From positions 1 through 27,765 of the IMG/VR virus record IMGVR_UViG_3300021959_000302: a stretch of DNA of 27,765 nt; one strand, written 5' to 3'. Below are positions 16,305 through 26,730 of this stretch, one piece after another. The notes beneath the pieces were generated by a model. It worked only from the letters and a program-made list of their open reading frames with translations, searched no databases and was not told where the DNA came from. The number at the start of each line of letters is the position of its first letter. Position 1 is the first letter of the stretch. The translations under genes were made by a program, and so were the position numbers. The stretch is from a virus.

Positions 16305-18476
16305 ATGACAAAAAAAATAAAAGATAAGCTTAAAAAAAGAGCTAAATATCAACGTGGGCGTGGCGTAGTAACTGATAATAACAATACACAGCTTATTGAT
16401 GGTGGTGGTAGAATAGACCAACCTCAAGAAAGAGGTAGAGGTAGAGACGAAGCTGGTCAAATTCCTAATGAGCCACCAGCACCAACACCTGCTCCTACTC
16501 CAGCTCCAACACCAGCTCCAACACCAGCTCCTACTCCAGCTCCTACTCCTGCCCCTACTCCGGCTCCAACACCAGCACCTATACCTGTTGATGAGACTCC
16601 TGAACAAAAAGAGATTAGACTAGCAGCAGAAGCAGAAATAGCTAGGTTAGTAGAAGAAGCTAGACTAGCAGCAGAAGCAGAAGCAAAGCGAGTAGCTTTA
16701 GAACGTAAAAGAATGCAAGACGCTAAAGAAACAGCTAAAGATTTAATATCTGGAAACATGACAGGACTTCCTGTAACTCCAGACCCTAAAGCAGTAGAAG
16801 TTGGAGAAATGGGTGTAGCTAAAGAACTAGCAGCACAGGACAAAGTTGAAGTAGATACAGTTGATACAATAACTGCTCCTACTGCTGACACTGTTACTAC
16901 TACAGATACTGCGGATGCTCCCGGTGCTTTAACTGCTGATACAATGACAGCAGCTGAAATTACAGAAGCTCCAGAAGTTGCTGTAGAGGAAGGAGAAGTT
17001 AGTGCTGAAGCACAAGCCCAAGCTGCTGAAACTGAACGAGTAGCTCCAATTGAAGCAGCTACGGTTGAAATTATTCCCGGTGCTTTAACTGAAAGAGTTA
17101 TTGGAACTATAAGCCCTACTGCTATGTCAGAAGCTGCTCAAGTAGCAGGAACAACTCTAGCACGGGTTACAAGGGCTAAAAAACAATTAGCTAATGCTGG
17201 TGTTAGTGCAGAAGATATAGCTACGTTAGGTAACGACCCTGAAAGTTTAGAAGATAGACTGATGGATTTAACCGAAGCAGAACGTGGAGTTATTGCAGGG
17301 CTTCCTGAAGAAGCTTTAGTATCTAATCAAGTAGATAGTTTATTAAAAGGTATTGAAGAAGGTGAGATTCCTACATGGGCTAGACCCGCTGTTGCTAGTG
17401 TAGAAGCTATGTTAGCACAACGTGGTATGTCAGCCTCTACTGTAGGTAGAGATGCTTTGCTCAATGCTATTATACAATCAGCTATCCCATTGGCTCAGTC
17501 TAACGCACAAGCAATACAAGCAAGTGTAGGACAACAGAAGTCTATTGAAGCTCAAGCTGAATTACAGAGTGCTCAGTTTAGACAACAGACAGCACTTGAT
17601 AACGCTGGTAAAGTTTTCCAAATGGACATGGCTCAGTTTAGTGCTGACCAACAAACCGCTTTATCTAACAGTAAGTTTTTACAAACTGTAGGTTTAACTG
17701 AAGCTAATAATAGACAACAAGCAACAATTCAAAATGCTGTGCTTATGTCACAAGCTAATTTAGCTGATGCAGACTTTTATCAGAAAACTCAGATAAACAA
17801 TGCTAATGCTTTCTTACAGACAGACTTAACAAATCTTAATAATAATCAACAAGCTAATGTGTTAAAAGCTCAACAAGCTCAACAAACGTTATTAAGTAAT
17901 CAGTCTGCTCAAAATGCTGCAAGACAATTTAATAGTGCTAGTGAAAATCAAACACAACAGTTTATGTCAAGTTTATCTGCACAAGTAGACCAGTTTAATG
18001 CACAGCAAACTAATGCTATGTCTCAGTTTAATACTCAACAGATTAATGCAAGACAAGCTTTACAGTTTCAAGCAGATGTAGATGTAGCTAAAGCTAATTC
18101 TGCTATGACAAATCAAGTCAATACATTTAATGCACAAGTAGAATTTGATAGAGAAAAATTTAATGTTGCTAATGCACAAGCTATTGAACAAGCTAATCTA
18201 GCATGGAGAAGACAAGCCAATACAATTAATACAGCAGCAGCCAATCAAGTGTCTATGCAGAATGCACAAAATGCATTTAATATGTCATCACAAGCACAAG
18301 CTTTCTTATGGCAAGAAATGCGTGACCAAGCAGATTTTAATTTTAGAGCTGCTGAAGGAAAAGAAAACAGAGAAACACAACTTTATGCTACAGCGTTAGC
18401 AAACGAAACAAGTACTGCAGAGAATTTTAATGCGTCATTAAATGCTGTATCAAATTTAATTAAAGCATTTGGATAG
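16305..18476 (+). CDS. Internal virion or ejection protein with Pro/Thr linker and Q/N-rich helical region
   Basis: This encodes 723 residues. The layout is a basic N-terminus (1-45), a TPAP repeat linker (57-95), a Glu/Ala-rich helical segment (97-140), an Ala/Thr/Glu-rich low-complexity region (160-265), a compact domain (about 285-400: IPTWARPAVASVEAMLAQRGMSAS, then ALLNAIIQSAIPLAQSNAQ) and a long Q/N/A-rich helical stretch to the end (FNAQQTNAMSQFNTQQINAR style). I recall the same WARPAV..E..L..RG...S core with a Q/N-rich tail in large virion proteins of marine podoviruses. The role is probably inside the capsid or in DNA ejection, as with T7 gp14-16. It could instead be a tail assembly protein. 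Confidence 0.7.
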   Translation: MTKKIKDKLKKRAKYQRGRGVVTDNNNTQLIDGGGRIDQPQERGRGRDEAGQIPNEPPAPTPAPTPAPTPAPTPAPTPAPTPAPTPAPTPAPIPVDETPEQKEIRLAAEAEIARLVEEARLAAEAEAKRVALERKRMQDAKETAKDLISGNMTGLPVTPDPKAVEVGEMGVAKELAAQDKVEVDTVDTITAPTADTVTTTDTADAPGALTADTMTAAEITEAPEVAVEEGEVSAEAQAQAAETERVAPIEAATVEIIPGALTERVIGTISPTAMSEAAQVAGTTLARVTRAKKQLANAGVSAEDIATLGNDPESLEDRLMDLTEAERGVIAGLPEEALVSNQVDSLLKGIEEGEIPTWARPAVASVEAMLAQRGMSASTVGRDALLNAIIQSAIPLAQSNAQAIQASVGQQKSIEAQAELQSAQFRQQTALDNAGKVFQMDMAQFSADQQTALSNSKFLQTVGLTEANNRQQATIQNAVLMSQANLADADFYQKTQINNANAFLQTDLTNLNNNQQANVLKAQQAQQTLLSNQSAQNAARQFNSASENQTQQFMSSLSAQVDQFNAQQTNAMSQFNTQQINARQALQFQADVDVAKANSAMTNQVNTFNAQVEFDREKFNVANAQAIEQANLAWRRQANTINTAAANQVSMQNAQNAFNMSSQAQAFLWQEMRDQADFNFRAAEGKENRETQLYATALANETSTAENFNASLNAVSNLIKAFG
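16473..16585 (+). repeat. Tandem 12-base repeats encoding a Pro-Ala-Pro-Thr linker
   Basis: About nine units of PAPT lie in the N-terminal part of the 723-residue protein. Codons for each residue vary between units. A stiff, extended linker is likely. The low complexity makes repeat number prone to change between relatives. Confidence 0.85.
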
Positions 18477-19490: not shown

Positions 19491-20069
19491 ATGATGGAAC
19501 CACAACAACTTGAACAAGAAGGTCTAGAAGTTCTAGGTCAAATGCAACGACCTATCCCGGGACAAAGTTTAACTAACAGTCCTGATACTCCTTATCCTTG
19601 GGAACAACCTACAGAGTTTACAGAAATACAACCTGCTATTGAATCTATGTTTATAAATTTAACAGAAGATGATGCTTATGAAGCTCTTGTTGATATTATA
19701 GATGCAGACAATACTATTGCTGAAGCTGCACAAATTATTTTATTTGCTGGTTTTGAAGAAGGTTTATGGAATCCTGATTTAATGACCCTACTAATTGAGC
19801 CAACTATGTATTTAATTATGGCGTTGGTTGAACGAGCAGGAAGAGTAGAATACAAAATTGATAGAGAACCTGACGAGTTAGACGAAGAAGATAAAGCTGA
19901 ACAAATTACAGCTATGGAAAAATTACTTAGCCAAGCAGCTGTACAAGCAGAAGAAGATAAAGTTAGCGGAGTTAAGTCTGGAGTTCTACCAACTGAGATA
20001 GAAAAGAAATTAAAAGAAATTAAAGTGCCTGAAAGTTTATTGGCACCTAAAAACACAGAGGAAGTATAA
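19491..20069 (+). CDS. Acidic structural-region protein with PIPGQSLTN motif
   Basis: This encodes 192 acidic residues. It opens with a Gln/Glu-rich segment, PIPGQSLTNSPDTPYPWEQPTEF (about residues 21-43), then a helical core containing EAAQIILFAGFEEGLWNPDLMTLLIEPTMYLIMALVERA. It ends in a charged tail. I recall this same PGQSLTN..PYPWE plus IL..GF.EG.WNPDLM..L.EP pattern in proteins of many marine myo- and podoviruses near virion genes, uncharacterised. It has no signal peptide; the hydrophobic core is short and helical rather than a clear membrane span. ATG 19491 and ATG 19494 are alternative starts. The stop overlaps ATG 20069 (TAATG). Confidence 0.7.
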   Translation: MMEPQQLEQEGLEVLGQMQRPIPGQSLTNSPDTPYPWEQPTEFTEIQPAIESMFINLTEDDAYEALVDIIDADNTIAEAAQIILFAGFEEGLWNPDLMTLLIEPTMYLIMALVERAGRVEYKIDREPDELDEEDKAEQITAMEKLLSQAAVQAEEDKVSGVKSGVLPTEIEKKLKEIKVPESLLAPKNTEEV

Positions 20070-22432
20070 TGGGAATAGCAACACTTGGAAAATCTTTACT
20101 ATCTTCTGCAAAGAAAAAAGCTAAGAAAGGACAGCAGTTTGGTCTTTTTGCTGGAGCAGCAATAGGTATAGCAGGAGCTGTTAATAGAGGTATTCGTGAG
20201 AAAGCTGTGCTAAGAGCACAACAGTGGGACCAAAGTTTGACTCCTCTTATAAATTCTTATTCAAAAGAATTTGCCACTATTAATGATACGAAGACAGACT
20301 ATGAAAAAAGAAACGACACTACTAAGTATGCCAACTATCAAGAAAGTTTTTATGAACCTGAAATAGAAAGACTTACTAAAATTGTAACAGGTGGAGCAAC
20401 AGATAAAACTTTAAGTCCTGCAGAATTAGCAGATATAAGAGTTCAAGCAATTGAGAATGTTTCTGATAATGTTTTAAAATATGAAACACGAGTTGAACAA
20501 TACAAACCTTATTTTGATTTAGACAAAGAAGCATTTGATAAAAATTTAACAGCTCTTCGTGCTAAAGGTGTAAAATTAATTTCTGATGATAGTTTAAAGA
20601 AACGTATAGGTCGTAAGTTTTTTGGCAGTACCGAAGGACAACAGCTAGTAAAGAAAATTAAAATGTCAGATACAGAAAGCATGGACATTTCTCTTCCACA
20701 AGAACTGATGGCAGCAATGGACACAACGTTTTTAAATTCATTAGCAGGAATAAAAACAAGAGAAGTTAAAGTTTCAGAAATTGAAATTATAGATGAACTA
20801 TATAATACTCCTGCAGACATAAATTTACTCCAAGAAAAAATTCTTAGAGACCCTCCGGTAGATGATTTGTCACAGGACACAATAAATGCTGTACTACAAA
20901 TAGTAACTCCTAGAACTAAAGGGGTTGGAGGAGCTGCAGATACAGAAAATATTAATTATATAGGAGACTTAACTTTTTCAAACTCTGAAAATAAAAGTAT
21001 TAAAGTACCTATGGCAGATTTACAAGCTATATTAGAAAAAACTATTAATGGCGGTGAACTTAATCCTGACTCTAGTAAGAATAATTTTACAGACTGGAAT
21101 CAGTTTCAAAAAGATATTGCAATGTTAACACAGGCAAGTGAAATTGAATACTCTCGTACTAGTAATGAACCAGTTGTACAGTCTCAAAGACAACAGTGGG
21201 CGGCTAATGCTGCTGTTGAAGTTGCTCGAAGTTTTACTATTACTGCAACAGAAGATACAAGTCGTTTTTGGGCACCTAGTAATGCAGAACAGCTTCTTAA
21301 AAAAACACAAGCTAATCAATCACAAACCCCTACTCCTACTGTTGATGGTGAACTACCTACTACTACTAGCACATCTCCCAACGAATTTAAAGTTGTTAAA
21401 GTTGTAGACGATTCTTTATTTAATAAACAAGCAGTAGTTAAAATAATAGATACTCCTGAATGGAGAGCAATGCCTATTGAAGAACAGTTTAATTTTTTTA
21501 ACGCATTAAAAAATCAACATCCTAATGCTATAAAAGAAATTGCAAATATGCAAAAAGCTTTATCAGAAAATAAACCTTTAGAAGAAGTAATGCAAGACAC
21601 TTTATCAGAAGACATGACACGTGTAGACGGTACAGAAAAGTCTTCTACAGGATTTAAAGGTCCTATTACAAATAACGTAGACAACTCTACAATGACAGAA
21701 GTTTCAGTAGGTGTTATGATTAATGGTAAAGAAACTTTAGTACCTGCAATTAATGAGCTAACAACAGATGCACAGATAAAAGTTTTACAAAATTTAAAAA
21801 TTGGAGTAGACCCTATACCTGAAGACATACAGATAACTGCTAAGAAAGCAGCAGAGGCACGTATAAAAGCAGGTCTTAATCCTTTCTATCAAGATGTAGA
21901 AAAAAAAGAAATACAAGAAAGTTTATTGTCTACAACTAAAGATGTACAAGCTGACTTAACAAATACTATAGAACAAAATACTTCTACAAGTTTATTATCT
22001 CCTGATAAAGATTCTGATATTGATGAGGATTCTAGTGCTAATAATTTTGATAATAGTTTAGTTACCCAAGACGTATTAGATAAATTTAAACCTAGCGAAC
22101 TTAAACAATACAAAAGTATTATGAAACGTGCAGAAGTTGCTCAAGAAAGATTAAACAGTGAAGAGTGGATGCTTGATGCGTCTCCATCAAAGATTCAAAA
22201 AACAGAAACAATTCTTAAAAATGCTCAAACTAACCTTAATAAATTAGTAGACTCTGCAGGAACAGCTTTATTTATTCCTGTATTTACTTCAGAAGAAGAA
22301 AGACTTGAAAAAATTATCGAGCAAAAAACTTTAAATCTTGATTACGCTACAGACATAAGTAAAAATGTAAGACAGAAAAGAGAATCAGAACTTACTGAAT
22401 TACGAAAACGTTTAGCTGAATTAAAACTTTAA
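20069..22432 (+). CDS. Putative internal virion or ejection protein (787 aa)
   Basis: This encodes 787 residues. It begins with a basic, Ala/Gly-rich segment and a short hydrophobic stretch (FGLFAGAAIGIAGAVNRGI, about residues 25-43), then long helical regions (for example FDLDKEAFDKNLTALRAKG and ELKQYKSIMKRAEVAQERL). It lies between two other likely ejection proteins, and by order resembles T7 gp15, but I see no specific motif. The C-terminal 90 residues look coiled-coil-like (TETILKNAQTNLNKL, EERLEKIIEQ, RQKRESELTELRKRLAELKL). Gln/Thr/Pro-rich linkers split the protein near residues 410-440. It starts in a TAATG overlap with its neighbour, with GAGGAA upstream. A structural role is inferred from position and size. 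Confidence 0.6.
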   Translation: MGIATLGKSLLSSAKKKAKKGQQFGLFAGAAIGIAGAVNRGIREKAVLRAQQWDQSLTPLINSYSKEFATINDTKTDYEKRNDTTKYANYQESFYEPEIERLTKIVTGGATDKTLSPAELADIRVQAIENVSDNVLKYETRVEQYKPYFDLDKEAFDKNLTALRAKGVKLISDDSLKKRIGRKFFGSTEGQQLVKKIKMSDTESMDISLPQELMAAMDTTFLNSLAGIKTREVKVSEIEIIDELYNTPADINLLQEKILRDPPVDDLSQDTINAVLQIVTPRTKGVGGAADTENINYIGDLTFSNSENKSIKVPMADLQAILEKTINGGELNPDSSKNNFTDWNQFQKDIAMLTQASEIEYSRTSNEPVVQSQRQQWAANAAVEVARSFTITATEDTSRFWAPSNAEQLLKKTQANQSQTPTPTVDGELPTTTSTSPNEFKVVKVVDDSLFNKQAVVKIIDTPEWRAMPIEEQFNFFNALKNQHPNAIKEIANMQKALSENKPLEEVMQDTLSEDMTRVDGTEKSSTGFKGPITNNVDNSTMTEVSVGVMINGKETLVPAINELTTDAQIKVLQNLKIGVDPIPEDIQITAKKAAEARIKAGLNPFYQDVEKKEIQESLLSTTKDVQADLTNTIEQNTSTSLLSPDKDSDIDEDSSANNFDNSLVTQDVLDKFKPSELKQYKSIMKRAEVAQERLNSEEWMLDASPSKIQKTETILKNAQTNLNKLVDSAGTALFIPVFTSEEERLEKIIEQKTLNLDYATDISKNVRQKRESELTELRKRLAELKL

Positions 22433-22448
22433 AATCTTAGGAAACTAA

Positions 22449-25400
22449 ATGACCCCTGAAACAGAATACAACTCTGAGTATTTTTTAAATTTGTATAATG
22501 AAAATGCAAACGTTACTGTGGATGATGAAAAAGAAGAGGAAGAAGAAGAAGAGGAGGAAGAACAAAAATTTGATTCTAGTTATTTTTTAAACCAATACAA
22601 CAGCTCTATTGATTCTGAACAAGAAGAAAAAGAATTTATTTTACAAGAAGAAGAACGTGTATCTGAAGAACGCATAGAATTAGAAAATCAAATTCTTGAC
22701 GAAGATGTTGAGTTAGAAAAGTATGAAGGTAAAAAAGAACTTATACGAGAAGCCGAGCCTACTACCTACAATTCAAATTACTTTTTAAATCAATACAACA
22801 GTACAACATCTAAAGACTTACCTAGTGCTGAACCTACTATTGCACAAAAAATACAACTTGGTGGAAAACTAGAACGTCATACACTCGGAAATCTTTTTAG
22901 GACTATAAAAGCTGGAGCAGCTACTATAAGTAATAATAAATCTTTTCAAGAAAACATTAAAGAAATTGAGACAGAACGTACTGATAAAATTTTTAAGTAT
23001 ATGGAAGAAGAGTACGGTATAGACTTTCGTAAAAATGAAAACGATGCTGCTGTTATAACAGGTCGAATAGGCGTTGCTATAGCAGACCCAGTAACATTTT
23101 TTATACCGTGGGCAAAGATTGCAAAGCTTGGAAAAATAGGAGCAACTGCGACAGGTGCAGGTATTGGAGCTGCTGACATGGCACTATACGAGTATGCTGC
23201 TTATGGAGAAGTAAATCCTAACAATGTTTTATTTGGTGCTGCTGTAGGTGGAGGAAGTTCTTTGCTCGGTGCAGCTGTAGCTAATAGATTTAAATCAGTA
23301 GATGGTGACGATATTAATCTAGGTAAAATAAATGGTCCAGATGCTGATGTTGTTGTTAAAAGCTCAGTCAAGCCTGAAAAAGTTGTAACATTAACTGCAA
23401 AAGAAACAGAAGACTTAAATAGAGTTCTCCCAATTGTTTTAAAAGAAAATTCAAATCTTTTAAAAGAGTTAGAAGGCTCATTAGTTTTAAGTAAAATGTA
23501 TGTCAAAGCTAAAAATGCTCAACAAGCATTAAAAGATGCAACCAAAGCAAACAGTAAATTTGACAAAGCTTCTAATAAATTAAAAGTAAAGATAGAAGGC
23601 AAAGCTCCTTTCTCAGCTATACAAATTAAAAATTTAACAAAGAAATCTGATGAAGCAAAAGAGTTTATGAACAACGAGTTTGTAGATTTAATGGAGAAAT
23701 ATGCTAAAGGACAAGCTTACATTGCTACAGATGGAACCCTAAAGATAATGAAGAAAGAAGGGGTTGAAATAACAGATGGAATTTTACAAACTGTTTTAAA
23801 CGAAACATTCAGACCTTTATTTGGAGCTGGGGTAGGTTTTACTGCTGGTACATTTATAGGTGATGAAGACGATGCAATTAACTATAGTTTAATGGGAGCC
23901 GGTATGACGTTCGGGCTTGTCTATAATAGAGTTAAAGATGCTCCTTATTTATTAATCGGTGAAAAAGAAAAAGCTTTTGGTATTATTAATAATAATGCTG
24001 CAAGAATGTTACATAACTTTTTAAAAGTTAAAGGTTCTGGAACTACAGCTTCTAGAAATATAAATCATGGGGGAGAAAACGAAGTACTTTCTCGTATGTT
24101 ACTCCCACAAATGGATGGTAAATACAAAAATATTATATCTGCAGAAGAAGCAACAGATGCTTTCATGGGTATATGGGCTAGACGCATTGATGATGTTGTT
24201 CAGAGGGCTACAGATGTAGAAGGTATTGCAGCCACTAAAATTATAAGGCAACTAACTACACCAGCTGAGTTAAAAGCTTCTGGTAAATTTACACCGGAAA
24301 GTTTAATTGTAATTAATAACTTGGTTAAGAACGGTAAACTATTTGTTAAAGAGATGAACGCGTATGCCGGACAAGTTATTAAGTATGACAAAATTAAAAA
24401 TTATGACCTTCCTCAAATTTGGAGTCAAGGTAAAATTTTAGGTAATATAAAAGAATCTAAAAAAATTGTACGAGAAGCTTTAAAAGCAGAAAATCCTAAA
24501 TGGAATTCTAAAAAAATTGCTACAGCTGCTGGTGATATCATAGATAATATTACAGGTAACGGGTCTGAAAAAATATTTAAAGGTTCTAACTTTGGAAGCG
24601 GGAAACTTGGTACTTTTACAGGAGTTCCTCAATTAAAAAACTTTGAAAAAGCAAGAACCTTCCAAAGTCTTGAAGCTAGAAAAATACTAGAACCTATTTT
24701 AGAAGAAAACTTAAAAGACCTTTTAGGAACATTTACTAAAAATACTGTTAAGGGTGTAGAGTTTGCTAGAAAGTTTGGACAGAACGGAGAAGTTTTAAGT
24801 TCGTTAAATAAGACGCTAGGTTTAAAATTAAAAAATGGATTAATAAATCAGAAAGAGTACAACATGAAAATTAAATTAATGGGTAATACTGTTAATGCTT
24901 ATTTTGGTATGCTTCATAAATCAGGAGATGACATACTGCAAGGCAACATGGCTAAAGATGGTTTTGCACTACTCACATTTTTAAGTAACTCTACAATGTT
25001 ACCACGTTCTATCATACCTCAATTAGGAGATTTTCTACAGCCGTTTCAAAATAGTAGTGTACGTTCTGCTACTACAGCAGCAGTTAACTCTTGGAGAAAA
25101 GATAACCTTGCTTCATTATATGGTGTAGGCGGAACTCGTTCTACATCCATTAGTTCTACTGTAGTAAAAGACCTCGAAGGAGCTTTTTCTGCAGGTATGA
25201 ATCCTACCACTAACCTACAAGCTAGGCTTGGTAATTTAACACAGACATTTTTTAAGTACAATTTAATGGCTCCAGCAACAAATCTAGCGGCAAGAGTTGC
25301 TTTTAGTTCTGGTATAGACGAAGTGTTCACCCTAGCAAAGAAAATTGGTAACAAAAAAACTATTAGTAAAGCACTGAGTACACGTTTAAAATACTATGGT

Positions 25401-26276
25401 TTAAATATGAAAGACTTAAAAGGTCTAAGTAAATTTAAAAGTGTAAAAGAAGCTTTAGAATCTCCTGTGGGAGAAAGTCTTTTAATTAAAGCAGGTAACA
25501 AAGCGTTTAAACGAGACGTAGGTTTGCCCGGAATAGGTAACAGAATGTTATTTGCTCAGTCTAATAACCCACTAGCCAAATCCGTAGGGTTATTTTTATC
25601 TTGGGCACAGTATAAAGTTGGACAAATGAACGGTTTAATAAATCGAGTAGAAGATGGAGATGTAAAGTTAGCTATCAAAATGTTAGGTACTATTACAATC
25701 TTTGGAGGTCTTAGAGAACTTCAAATGGAGATGAGTCCAGCACGAGAGTTTTATGAAAAAAACGAACCTGAAAACTTTGGTGCAAAGTGGTGGGGACAAG
25801 CGTCTGCGTTAGCGGGGTTTGTTGATTGGAGAATAGAAAAATTATCTAGAATCGTAAGCTCGTGGTCAGGCAATGGATACAGTAACGCCACTTCAAATAT
25901 TACTCCTTTATTTGGTGAGCTAGATAAATTATACAACGGAGCCGGTAAAACGTACAGGAATTTTTCAACTGGGGATTATGAGGGAGCTGCAGTAACAACA
26001 CTTAAGACTCTTCCTTTAGGTTCGGAGTTTGTAGATTATACTAACAGAGCTTCTGAATTTTTAACAGAAGAAGCTTTACTAGAAGATAGAGCTAATATAA
26101 AAACTTCTTCCGGTACACAACCGTTAATATCTAGAACTGACTTTTCAATGGGAGGAATCGTAGGTGAAGAACTTATACAAGGTCCTGAAGTACCTTTTAC
26201 ACAGGATAATGCTGCTGATAGAATCAACCCCATCACAGGATTACCCTACAATCAACCGGCAATTACATACAAATAA
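22449..26276 (+). CDS. Largest putative ejection protein (gp16-like), 1275 aa
   Basis: This encodes 1275 residues, the last gene before the lysis genes, where T7-like phages keep their largest internal virion protein. Residues 1-120 are acidic and disordered-looking, with three copies of a S.YFLNQYNS motif (Y7-N17, F41-S53, Y107-T119) separated by Glu-rich runs. Hydrophobic stretches near residues 205-240 (GRIGVAIADPVTFFIPWAKI) and 455-495 (FGAGVGFTAGTFIG, then YSLMGAGMTFGLVYN) could enter membranes during ejection. The remainder is helical with many Lys/Ile/Leu segments, including SNNPLAKSVGLFLSWAQYKVGQMNG near 1035-1060. I see no lysozyme or transglycosylase catalytic motif. AGGA precedes the start. 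The gp16-like call rests on size and position. Confidence 0.65.
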   Translation: MTPETEYNSEYFLNLYNENANVTVDDEKEEEEEEEEEEQKFDSSYFLNQYNSSIDSEQEEKEFILQEEERVSEERIELENQILDEDVELEKYEGKKELIREAEPTTYNSNYFLNQYNSTTSKDLPSAEPTIAQKIQLGGKLERHTLGNLFRTIKAGAATISNNKSFQENIKEIETERTDKIFKYMEEEYGIDFRKNENDAAVITGRIGVAIADPVTFFIPWAKIAKLGKIGATATGAGIGAADMALYEYAAYGEVNPNNVLFGAAVGGGSSLLGAAVANRFKSVDGDDINLGKINGPDADVVVKSSVKPEKVVTLTAKETEDLNRVLPIVLKENSNLLKELEGSLVLSKMYVKAKNAQQALKDATKANSKFDKASNKLKVKIEGKAPFSAIQIKNLTKKSDEAKEFMNNEFVDLMEKYAKGQAYIATDGTLKIMKKEGVEITDGILQTVLNETFRPLFGAGVGFTAGTFIGDEDDAINYSLMGAGMTFGLVYNRVKDAPYLLIGEKEKAFGIINNNAARMLHNFLKVKGSGTTASRNINHGGENEVLSRMLLPQMDGKYKNIISAEEATDAFMGIWARRIDDVVQRATDVEGIAATKIIRQLTTPAELKASGKFTPESLIVINNLVKNGKLFVKEMNAYAGQVIKYDKIKNYDLPQIWSQGKILGNIKESKKIVREALKAENPKWNSKKIATAAGDIIDNITGNGSEKIFKGSNFGSGKLGTFTGVPQLKNFEKARTFQSLEARKILEPILEENLKDLLGTFTKNTVKGVEFARKFGQNGEVLSSLNKTLGLKLKNGLINQKEYNMKIKLMGNTVNAYFGMLHKSGDDILQGNMAKDGFALLTFLSNSTMLPRSIIPQLGDFLQPFQNSSVRSATTAAVNSWRKDNLASLYGVGGTRSTSISSTVVKDLEGAFSAGMNPTTNLQARLGNLTQTFFKYNLMAPATNLAARVAFSSGIDEVFTLAKKIGNKKTISKALSTRLKYYGLNMKDLKGLSKFKSVKEALESPVGESLLIKAGNKAFKRDVGLPGIGNRMLFAQSNNPLAKSVGLFLSWAQYKVGQMNGLINRVEDGDVKLAIKMLGTITIFGGLRELQMEMSPAREFYEKNEPENFGAKWWGQASALAGFVDWRIEKLSRIVSSWSGNGYSNATSNITPLFGELDKLYNGAGKTYRNFSTGDYEGAAVTTLKTLPLGSEFVDYTNRASEFLTEEALLEDRANIKTSSGTQPLISRTDFSMGGIVGEELIQGPEVPFTQDNAADRINPITGLPYNQPAITYK

Positions 26277-26277
26277 T

Positions 26278-26730
26278 ATGAACATAGACTTATGCAAGTG
26301 GGAAATTAAAAGACACGAGGGCGAAGTCCTAGAAATCTATAACGACAGTTTAGGTTATAAGACTCTAGGAGTTGGTCATCTATGTCAACCACAAGACGAA
26401 GAATACGACTGGGAAATAGGCACACCTGTATCTCAAAAGGTTGTAGACAGATACTACATGATAGACTTTGATAGGCATTATGCAGAAGCTATACATGTGT
26501 TTGGAAGCCAAGAAGATTTTAATAATCTACCAGAAGATATAAAACGTGTGTTAGTAAACATGTGTTTTAACCTAGGTGGTACAAGACTTTCAAAGTTTCG
26601 TAACATGTTAAAAGCTTGTAAAGAACACAACTGGGCTGAGATGGCTAGACAAATGGAAGATAGCAAGTGGTTTAAACAGGTTGGTAGACGTAGTGTAGAG
26701 CTACAACAGTTAGTTTTAAACTTAGTATAA
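26278..26730 (+). CDS. Endolysin, T4-type lysozyme (GH24 muramidase)
   Basis: This encodes 150 residues from ATG 26278 and cleaves the peptidoglycan glycan chain for lysis. The catalytic region matches T4 lysozyme: E14 in KRHEGEVLEIYNDSLGYKTLGVGHL corresponds to T4 E11, D23 to D20 and T29 to T26. The downstream DIKRVLVNMCFNLGGTRLSKFRNML and SKWFKQVGRRSVELQQLVL segments are also typical of the family. The open frame extends upstream to 26164 inside the previous gene, but 26278, two bases after that gene's stop, is the right start. It has no signal peptide or SAR segment, so export needs a holin. The stop overlaps ATG 26730 (TAATG). Confidence 0.93.
   Translation: MNIDLCKWEIKRHEGEVLEIYNDSLGYKTLGVGHLCQPQDEEYDWEIGTPVSQKVVDRYYMIDFDRHYAEAIHVFGSQEDFNNLPEDIKRVLVNMCFNLGGTRLSKFRNMLKACKEHNWAEMARQMEDSKWFKQVGRRSVELQQLVLNLV

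Follow-up and report, generated by a model that had tools for sequence, protein, structure and literature searches.

To our knowledge, only in T7 is it resolved how a gp16-like ejection protein locates the tunnel proteins and keeps hold of them. The three ejection proteins of T7, gp14, gp15 and gp16, have 196, 747 and 1318 residues, and the cited sections of the T7 report describe an extended N-terminal segment of gp16 (gp16-N) as a molecular tape that stitches the C-terminal regions of gp15 (PMC8954989). The ratio is 8 gp15 to 4 gp16 in T7 (PMC11784390), and 30 gp20 to 12 gp16 in the cited part of a report on P22 (PMC8402733).

The window, by which we mean the whole stretch of 27,765 nucleotides analysed here (viral record IMGVR_UViG_3300021959_000302), carries an internal virion protein (IVP) that, like T7 gp16, is the last and largest of three predicted ejection proteins of similar sizes, and below we propose that its N-terminal segment likewise engages the C-terminal region of the middle one. 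T7 gp16, however, starts with a transglycosylase domain followed by the tape, and the cited sections mention no repeated motif (PMC8954989), whereas the arm of the window protein is the extreme N-terminus, is acidic and belongs to a family of arrays with two to four copies of a motif whose letters are lineage-specific. The gene order is the same as in HTVC103P, HTVC104P, HTVC115P and the HMO-2011-type podophages, the IVP being homologous in the HTVC phages, but the HTVC and HMO-2011-type lineages carry motifs unrelated to each other. Matched copies separated by acidic linkers are also found in multivalent short-linear-motif arrays generally. Here, unlike in such arrays, the motif itself is replaced between close relatives while its copies stay matched.

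The Predicted Ejection Protein Genes

The window has small, medium and very large adjacent genes in the order of T7 gp14, gp15 and gp16 (Table 1). From gene order and size, the 1275-residue protein is most likely a gp16-like ejection protein, and its synteny suggests that virions would carry it and release it into the host. The nearest isolates to it are the Pelagibacter phages HTVC103P, HTVC104P and HTVC115P.

Table 1. Features of the ejection-protein region of the window
Feature	Position	Strand	Basis or remark
192-aa gp14-like protein	19491..20069	+	Completes three-gene ejection set (192/787/1275 aa)
787-aa gp15-like neighbour, candidate docking partner	20069..22432	+	Synteny in relatives; equivalent of HTVC103P gp53
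Last 130 residues of 787-aa protein, predicted motif-binding domain	22040..22429	+	By analogy with relatives
1275-aa gp16-like IVP (ejection protein), predicted	22449..26276	+	ORF; syntenic with HTVC103P gp52, 24-26% identity
Acidic N-terminal arm, residues 1-131	22449..22841	+	Net charge -31; predicted disordered
Motif copy 1, YNSEYFLNLYN, residues 7-17	22467..22499	+	YFL starts at 22479
Ten-Glu run, residues 29-38	22533..22562	+	
Motif copy 2, FDSSYFLNQYNSS, residues 41-53	22569..22607	+	YFL starts at 22581
Motif copy 3, YNSNYFLNQYNST, residues 107-119	22767..22805	+	YFL starts at 22779

PHROG and Pfam profile searches gave no match for the 1275-residue protein. Its relatives L042 and L072 match phrog_342, an internal virion protein with an endolysin domain. 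Family profiles of the IVP, of its neighbour and of the 192-residue protein matched nothing meaningful among PDB sequences. A PDB fold search with the model of the window protein gave no match at E≤0.001, and neither this model nor the L160 read-through model described below matched T7 gp15 or gp16. A peptidoglycan-hydrolase domain was not found at the N-terminus of the window protein, which is a disordered arm with no Pfam domain, and the lysozyme domain of HTVC103P gp52 sits C-terminally, not N-terminally. As the window protein has no enzyme domain at its N-terminus, and as its profile and fold searches came out negative or without a clear result, any placement of it in the T7 gp16 family is tentative.

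A separate lysozyme-like ORF with a predicted start codon (26164-26730) overlaps the IVP gene at its 3' end by 113 bases. A 723-residue protein (16305-18476) carries a proline-rich, low-complexity PAPT repeat close to its N-terminus. In HTVC103P gp52 (L001:7963-12975), residues 1277-1421, upstream of the lysozyme domain, have a weak methyltransferase-like match, and stretches similar to them match proteins of CRP-3, CRP-738 and Microcystis phage MJing1.

The Acidic Arm and Its Motif

A sequence-only reading had described S.YFLNQYNS as occurring three times in this protein, with acidic, probably disordered linkers and a run of ten Glu residues, and had placed these features at 22449-22810, which covers the arm correctly. 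The Glu run has exactly ten residues and three copies of the motif are present, but only copies 2 and 3 have the exact core YFLNQYNS; that of copy 1 is YFLNLYNE. The net charge of the arm agrees with the acidic character, and the predicted structure with disorder, since the motifs have a pLDDT of about 30-40 in a model with a mean pLDDT of 63. The arm is undocked in this single-chain model, which lends no support to docking of the motifs in cis on the IVP core, a reading that was set aside.

The best 8-mer self-score of the 131-residue arm is 45, while the maximum among 20,000 shuffles is 40, and none of 2,000 shuffles reaches its three-copy score. YFLN or FLNxY was not found in the other proteins of the window. 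Among 120 ORFs of at least 300 residues from the window and from related or capsid-sharing podophages, an N-terminal repeat reaches p≤0.01 in ten; six of these are last, largest ejection-type proteins and the remaining four are mostly of low complexity.

Arrays in Related Phages

The array is conserved across the relatives, most of which are metagenomic contigs, while its letters differ by lineage and its copies are matched within each protein. By an automatic test, 69 of the 85 distinct arms have a significant internal repeat (p≤0.01), as do 41 of the 51 clusters, a few of these calls being acidic linker repeats chosen by the automatic picker in place of the aromatic motif (e.g. L024 and L029). 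There are usually two to four copies, and each of the 72 arms whose repeat reaches p≤0.05 is acidic. Close relatives (70% identity) keep three copies, all YFLNLYN. More distant homologues keep both arm and array with other letters, among them three copies of LSLSNLEG, NPFD, FENEQ, IIDKSKLVGGE or NNRPFYMSGG, or two of DVFSQF, GYxGDL, NEFDYLF or KYDKYI. NPFDD is also among the lineage-specific arm motifs of relatives. The sequence-only reading had staked its proposal on the motif being conserved wherever the rest of the protein is. As to the letters, this does not hold, since they vary among relatives; what is conserved is the array, whose copies are rewritten together.

N-terminal repeats are also present in other podophages, namely in HMO-2011 gp22, HTVC033P gp52, phiM6_30, MQM1_22, CHOED_17 and CRP-1 gp31. 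The repeats in the last ejection-type gene are IDEWLAN/IDKWLAS in the Vibrio phage CHOED (L202), NPFFSRE/NPFLTRE in CRP-1 (L203) and two copies of ELNPWDEGY in phiM6 (L104). No repeat was seen in several relatives whose conserved sequence begins no more than about 35 residues into the protein, nor at the N-terminus in the T7-like HTVC019P, and gp15-like and gp14-like proteins have no consistent motif copies. A literature search found no description of these N-terminal repeats.

Selection and Concerted Change

The copies within one protein have 85% amino acid identity. Of 469 residues that agree between copies, 307 are encoded by the same codon, where random use of that protein's own codons would give 303; with one arm taken per cluster, the count is 194 of 288, with 186 expected. 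Codon sharing no higher than chance at this level of identity argues that the copies are matched by selection on the protein. They are old, with their likeness maintained at the protein level and not by recent duplication.

Change of the motif is concerted and extends far beyond the arm. HTVC103P has three copies of LSLSNLEG in its arm and HTVC104P has two of DVFSQF, and each has another copy of its own type about 1400 residues downstream. These two C-terminal copies are in the same place, between nearly identical flanks, and are of unrelated types. In relatives, further C-terminal copies follow a GGxV...GD stretch, and their type is the N-terminal type wherever both could be read. Something appears to read all of the copies, and its preference appears to have shifted between lineages.

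HTVC103P and HTVC104P share a host strain, HTCC7211, and in a comparison of their proteins most of those for the head, packaging and replication show 80-99% identity. The portal is 98.5%, the major capsid protein 88% and Hsp20 100% identical, although the motifs are unrelated; the portal and Hsp20, so little altered across the motif change, were rejected as partners of the motif. The neighbour, gp53, is only 36% identical. Several tail-region proteins and gp58 differ too (41-69%).

Covariation with the Neighbouring Protein

Motif type covaries with the last 150 residues of the neighbour, and with no other part of it, in the pooled relatives (partial Mantel r 0.47, p=0.0005, with the IVP core and the remaining parts of the neighbour held constant). 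The same is true in three of four clades, those of 103P (partial r 0.71, p=0.0005), L160 (0.77, p=0.03) and L042 (0.85, p=0.008), the smaller clades having very few same-motif pairs; the fourth clade, to which the window belongs, does not reach significance (r 0.25, p=0.16). The motifs for these tests were assigned by eye, a possible source of bias. In the pooled set and the 103P clade the result is robust across motif thresholds, to removal of close pairs and to the use of continuous motif similarity. The signal arises only in linear partial tests, binary and continuous, and rank-based Mantel tests give none for the neighbour's C-terminus because most pairs are in the noise range. Identity over the whole of gp53 is a poor predictor of the motif across all loci, with no clear signal, since gp53 is fast-evolving and mosaic.

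The covariation peaks 130 to 65 residues before the neighbour's end and is weaker at the very end, in a fine test that excluded L106, whose neighbour ORF is cut in the contig. In the pooled set, the first 100 residues of the IVP after the arm do not covary with the motif, and the neighbour's N-terminus does not track motif type. Since the peak is off the gene junction and there is none after the arm, the covariation appears to be more than linkage alone would give; the arm and the neighbour's 3' end are adjacent, and exchange of the two as a cassette may account for part of it. Motif similarity also follows similarity of the IVP core overall (partial r 0.28, p=0.0005).

Individual loci illustrate the pattern. 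L114 is a chimera: its IVP core and the N-terminus of its neighbour belong to the L122/L127/L128 lineage, its motif and the C-terminus of its neighbour to the LSLSNLEG lineage, this C-terminus being 53% identical to that of L106. L097, in which motif and neighbour C-terminus were both replaced, has an IVP core and neighbour N-terminus near the LSLSNLEG lineage; its motif is unrelated, and its neighbour C-terminus matches no member of the clade. In L116, L118 and L120, the gp53 C-terminus tracks the motif while the middle of gp53 does the opposite. In the L160 clade, the gp53 C-termini of the sole same-motif pair are 59% identical, against 20-34% in motif-different pairs whose gp53 proteins are otherwise about as closely related.

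The last 130 residues of the window's 787-residue protein have no detectable homologue among the collected neighbours. An ELVKDFE domain common to L004, L021, L024, L027 and L029 is absent by sequence from the window's neighbour, and the YFLN core is shared. For this reason, and for want of significant covariation in the clade to which the window belongs, the C-terminus of the 787-residue protein is favoured as partner of the window motifs by analogy with the relatives. Two partners named in the sequence-only reading thus fare differently: the near-identity of the portal under unrelated motifs speaks against it, while covariation in relatives speaks for the neighbouring internal protein, through its C-terminal 130 or so residues.

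Proposed Role of the Arm

By analogy with the T7 tape, the arm would be a multivalent tether. Each motif copy, probably forming a short amphipathic segment, would dock on the C-terminal domain of one gp15-like subunit, so that one gp16-like chain would staple two to four gp15-like chains. Such a tether may keep the ejection proteins assembled inside the capsid, form the DNA tunnel across the periplasm once they have been ejected, or do both. Plug and socket would co-diverge, giving a private pair for each phage lineage. We regard this lineage-specific lock and key as rather probable. The ratios cited above for T7 and, from the part of the report drawn on, for P22 mean that each gp16-like chain is matched by roughly two to two and a half gp15-like ones, which would suit two or three plugs. 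Predicted disorder, protein-level selection on the copies and concerted change between lineages support the earlier suggestion that the motifs are docking sites on a flexible arm. When the L160 neighbour was modelled by AlphaFold2 as read through into the arm (an in-silico tether, 21 sequences), the motifs had a pLDDT of about 36-50 and no confident docking was seen.

Homotypic copies and concerted change would also follow naturally if the copies paired between IVP subunits, needing to match one another and no outside partner, and the correlation of the motif with the IVP core agrees with this. Such pairing does not predict covariation with the neighbour's C-terminus and seems unlikely; the undocked arm in the single-chain window model bears on it little, as such a model cannot reveal pairing in trans. 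Binding of the motifs to the interior of the HK97-fold shell or to the portal, as a means of packaging the protein, is quite unlikely. An internal protein whose disordered terminal arm bears short motifs would suit it, and encapsulin cargo-loading peptides and the T4 capsid-targeting sequence likewise direct internal proteins through short tags at the end of a flexible tail; the LSLSNLEG type bears a superficial resemblance to encapsulin loading peptides. Cleavage and shell binding would be putative here, the portal is practically unchanged and the shell little changed between HTVC103P and HTVC104P despite their unrelated motifs, and no motif-specific change in capsid or portal was mapped among the few contigs that hold both.

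If the neighbour's 3' end and the arm were one recombination cassette with no functional meaning, and the copies arose by duplication within the arm, their covariation would reflect linkage only. The two are a few bases to about 20 apart in most loci, and some arms (L032, L142) have identical codons in both copies. This explanation is nevertheless improbable, since the covariation peaks away from the junction and, in the pooled set, is absent after the arm, the distant C-terminal copy matches in type and the codons of the copies are randomised overall. For a protein expected inside the cell, one might also imagine motifs that bind a host component, be it the membrane, the peptidoglycan or a protein of the cytoplasm, or else a phage chaperone or protease, and HTVC103P-type phages encode Hsp20 just downstream. 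Such binding is the most improbable of these readings, because unrelated motifs occur in two phages that share a host strain and an identical Hsp20.

The multivalent tether may be one case of a wider address code of podophage ejection machines, which we offer tentatively and with some doubt: an array of two to four copies, N-terminal and sometimes also before the C-terminal enzyme domain, would pair with a fast-evolving gp15-like socket and be swapped together with it. If so, the ejection machines of co-infecting phages would stay separate and modules would be exchanged only as matched pairs. A conserved array with letters that change freely yet jointly is strong evidence for a specific multivalent interaction, and in these widespread marine phages the signal can be read from sequence alone. 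The array offers a prediction of partner pairs and a peptide handle on tunnel assembly, and it may explain the mosaic look of ejection modules.

Further Features of the gp15-like Proteins

At about residues 540-640 of the 787-residue protein is a cassette, MTRxDGTxKSxxGxKGPI..NNV..MTEVS, that is shared with relatives. It is up to about 90% identical between L004 and L024 with flanks about 20% identical, which points to exchange within the gene. Within the L160 clade, the gp15-like proteins of L160, L169, L082, L170 and L188 share a conserved C-terminal tail, FFQYxxxFxxNPL, whatever their motif type.
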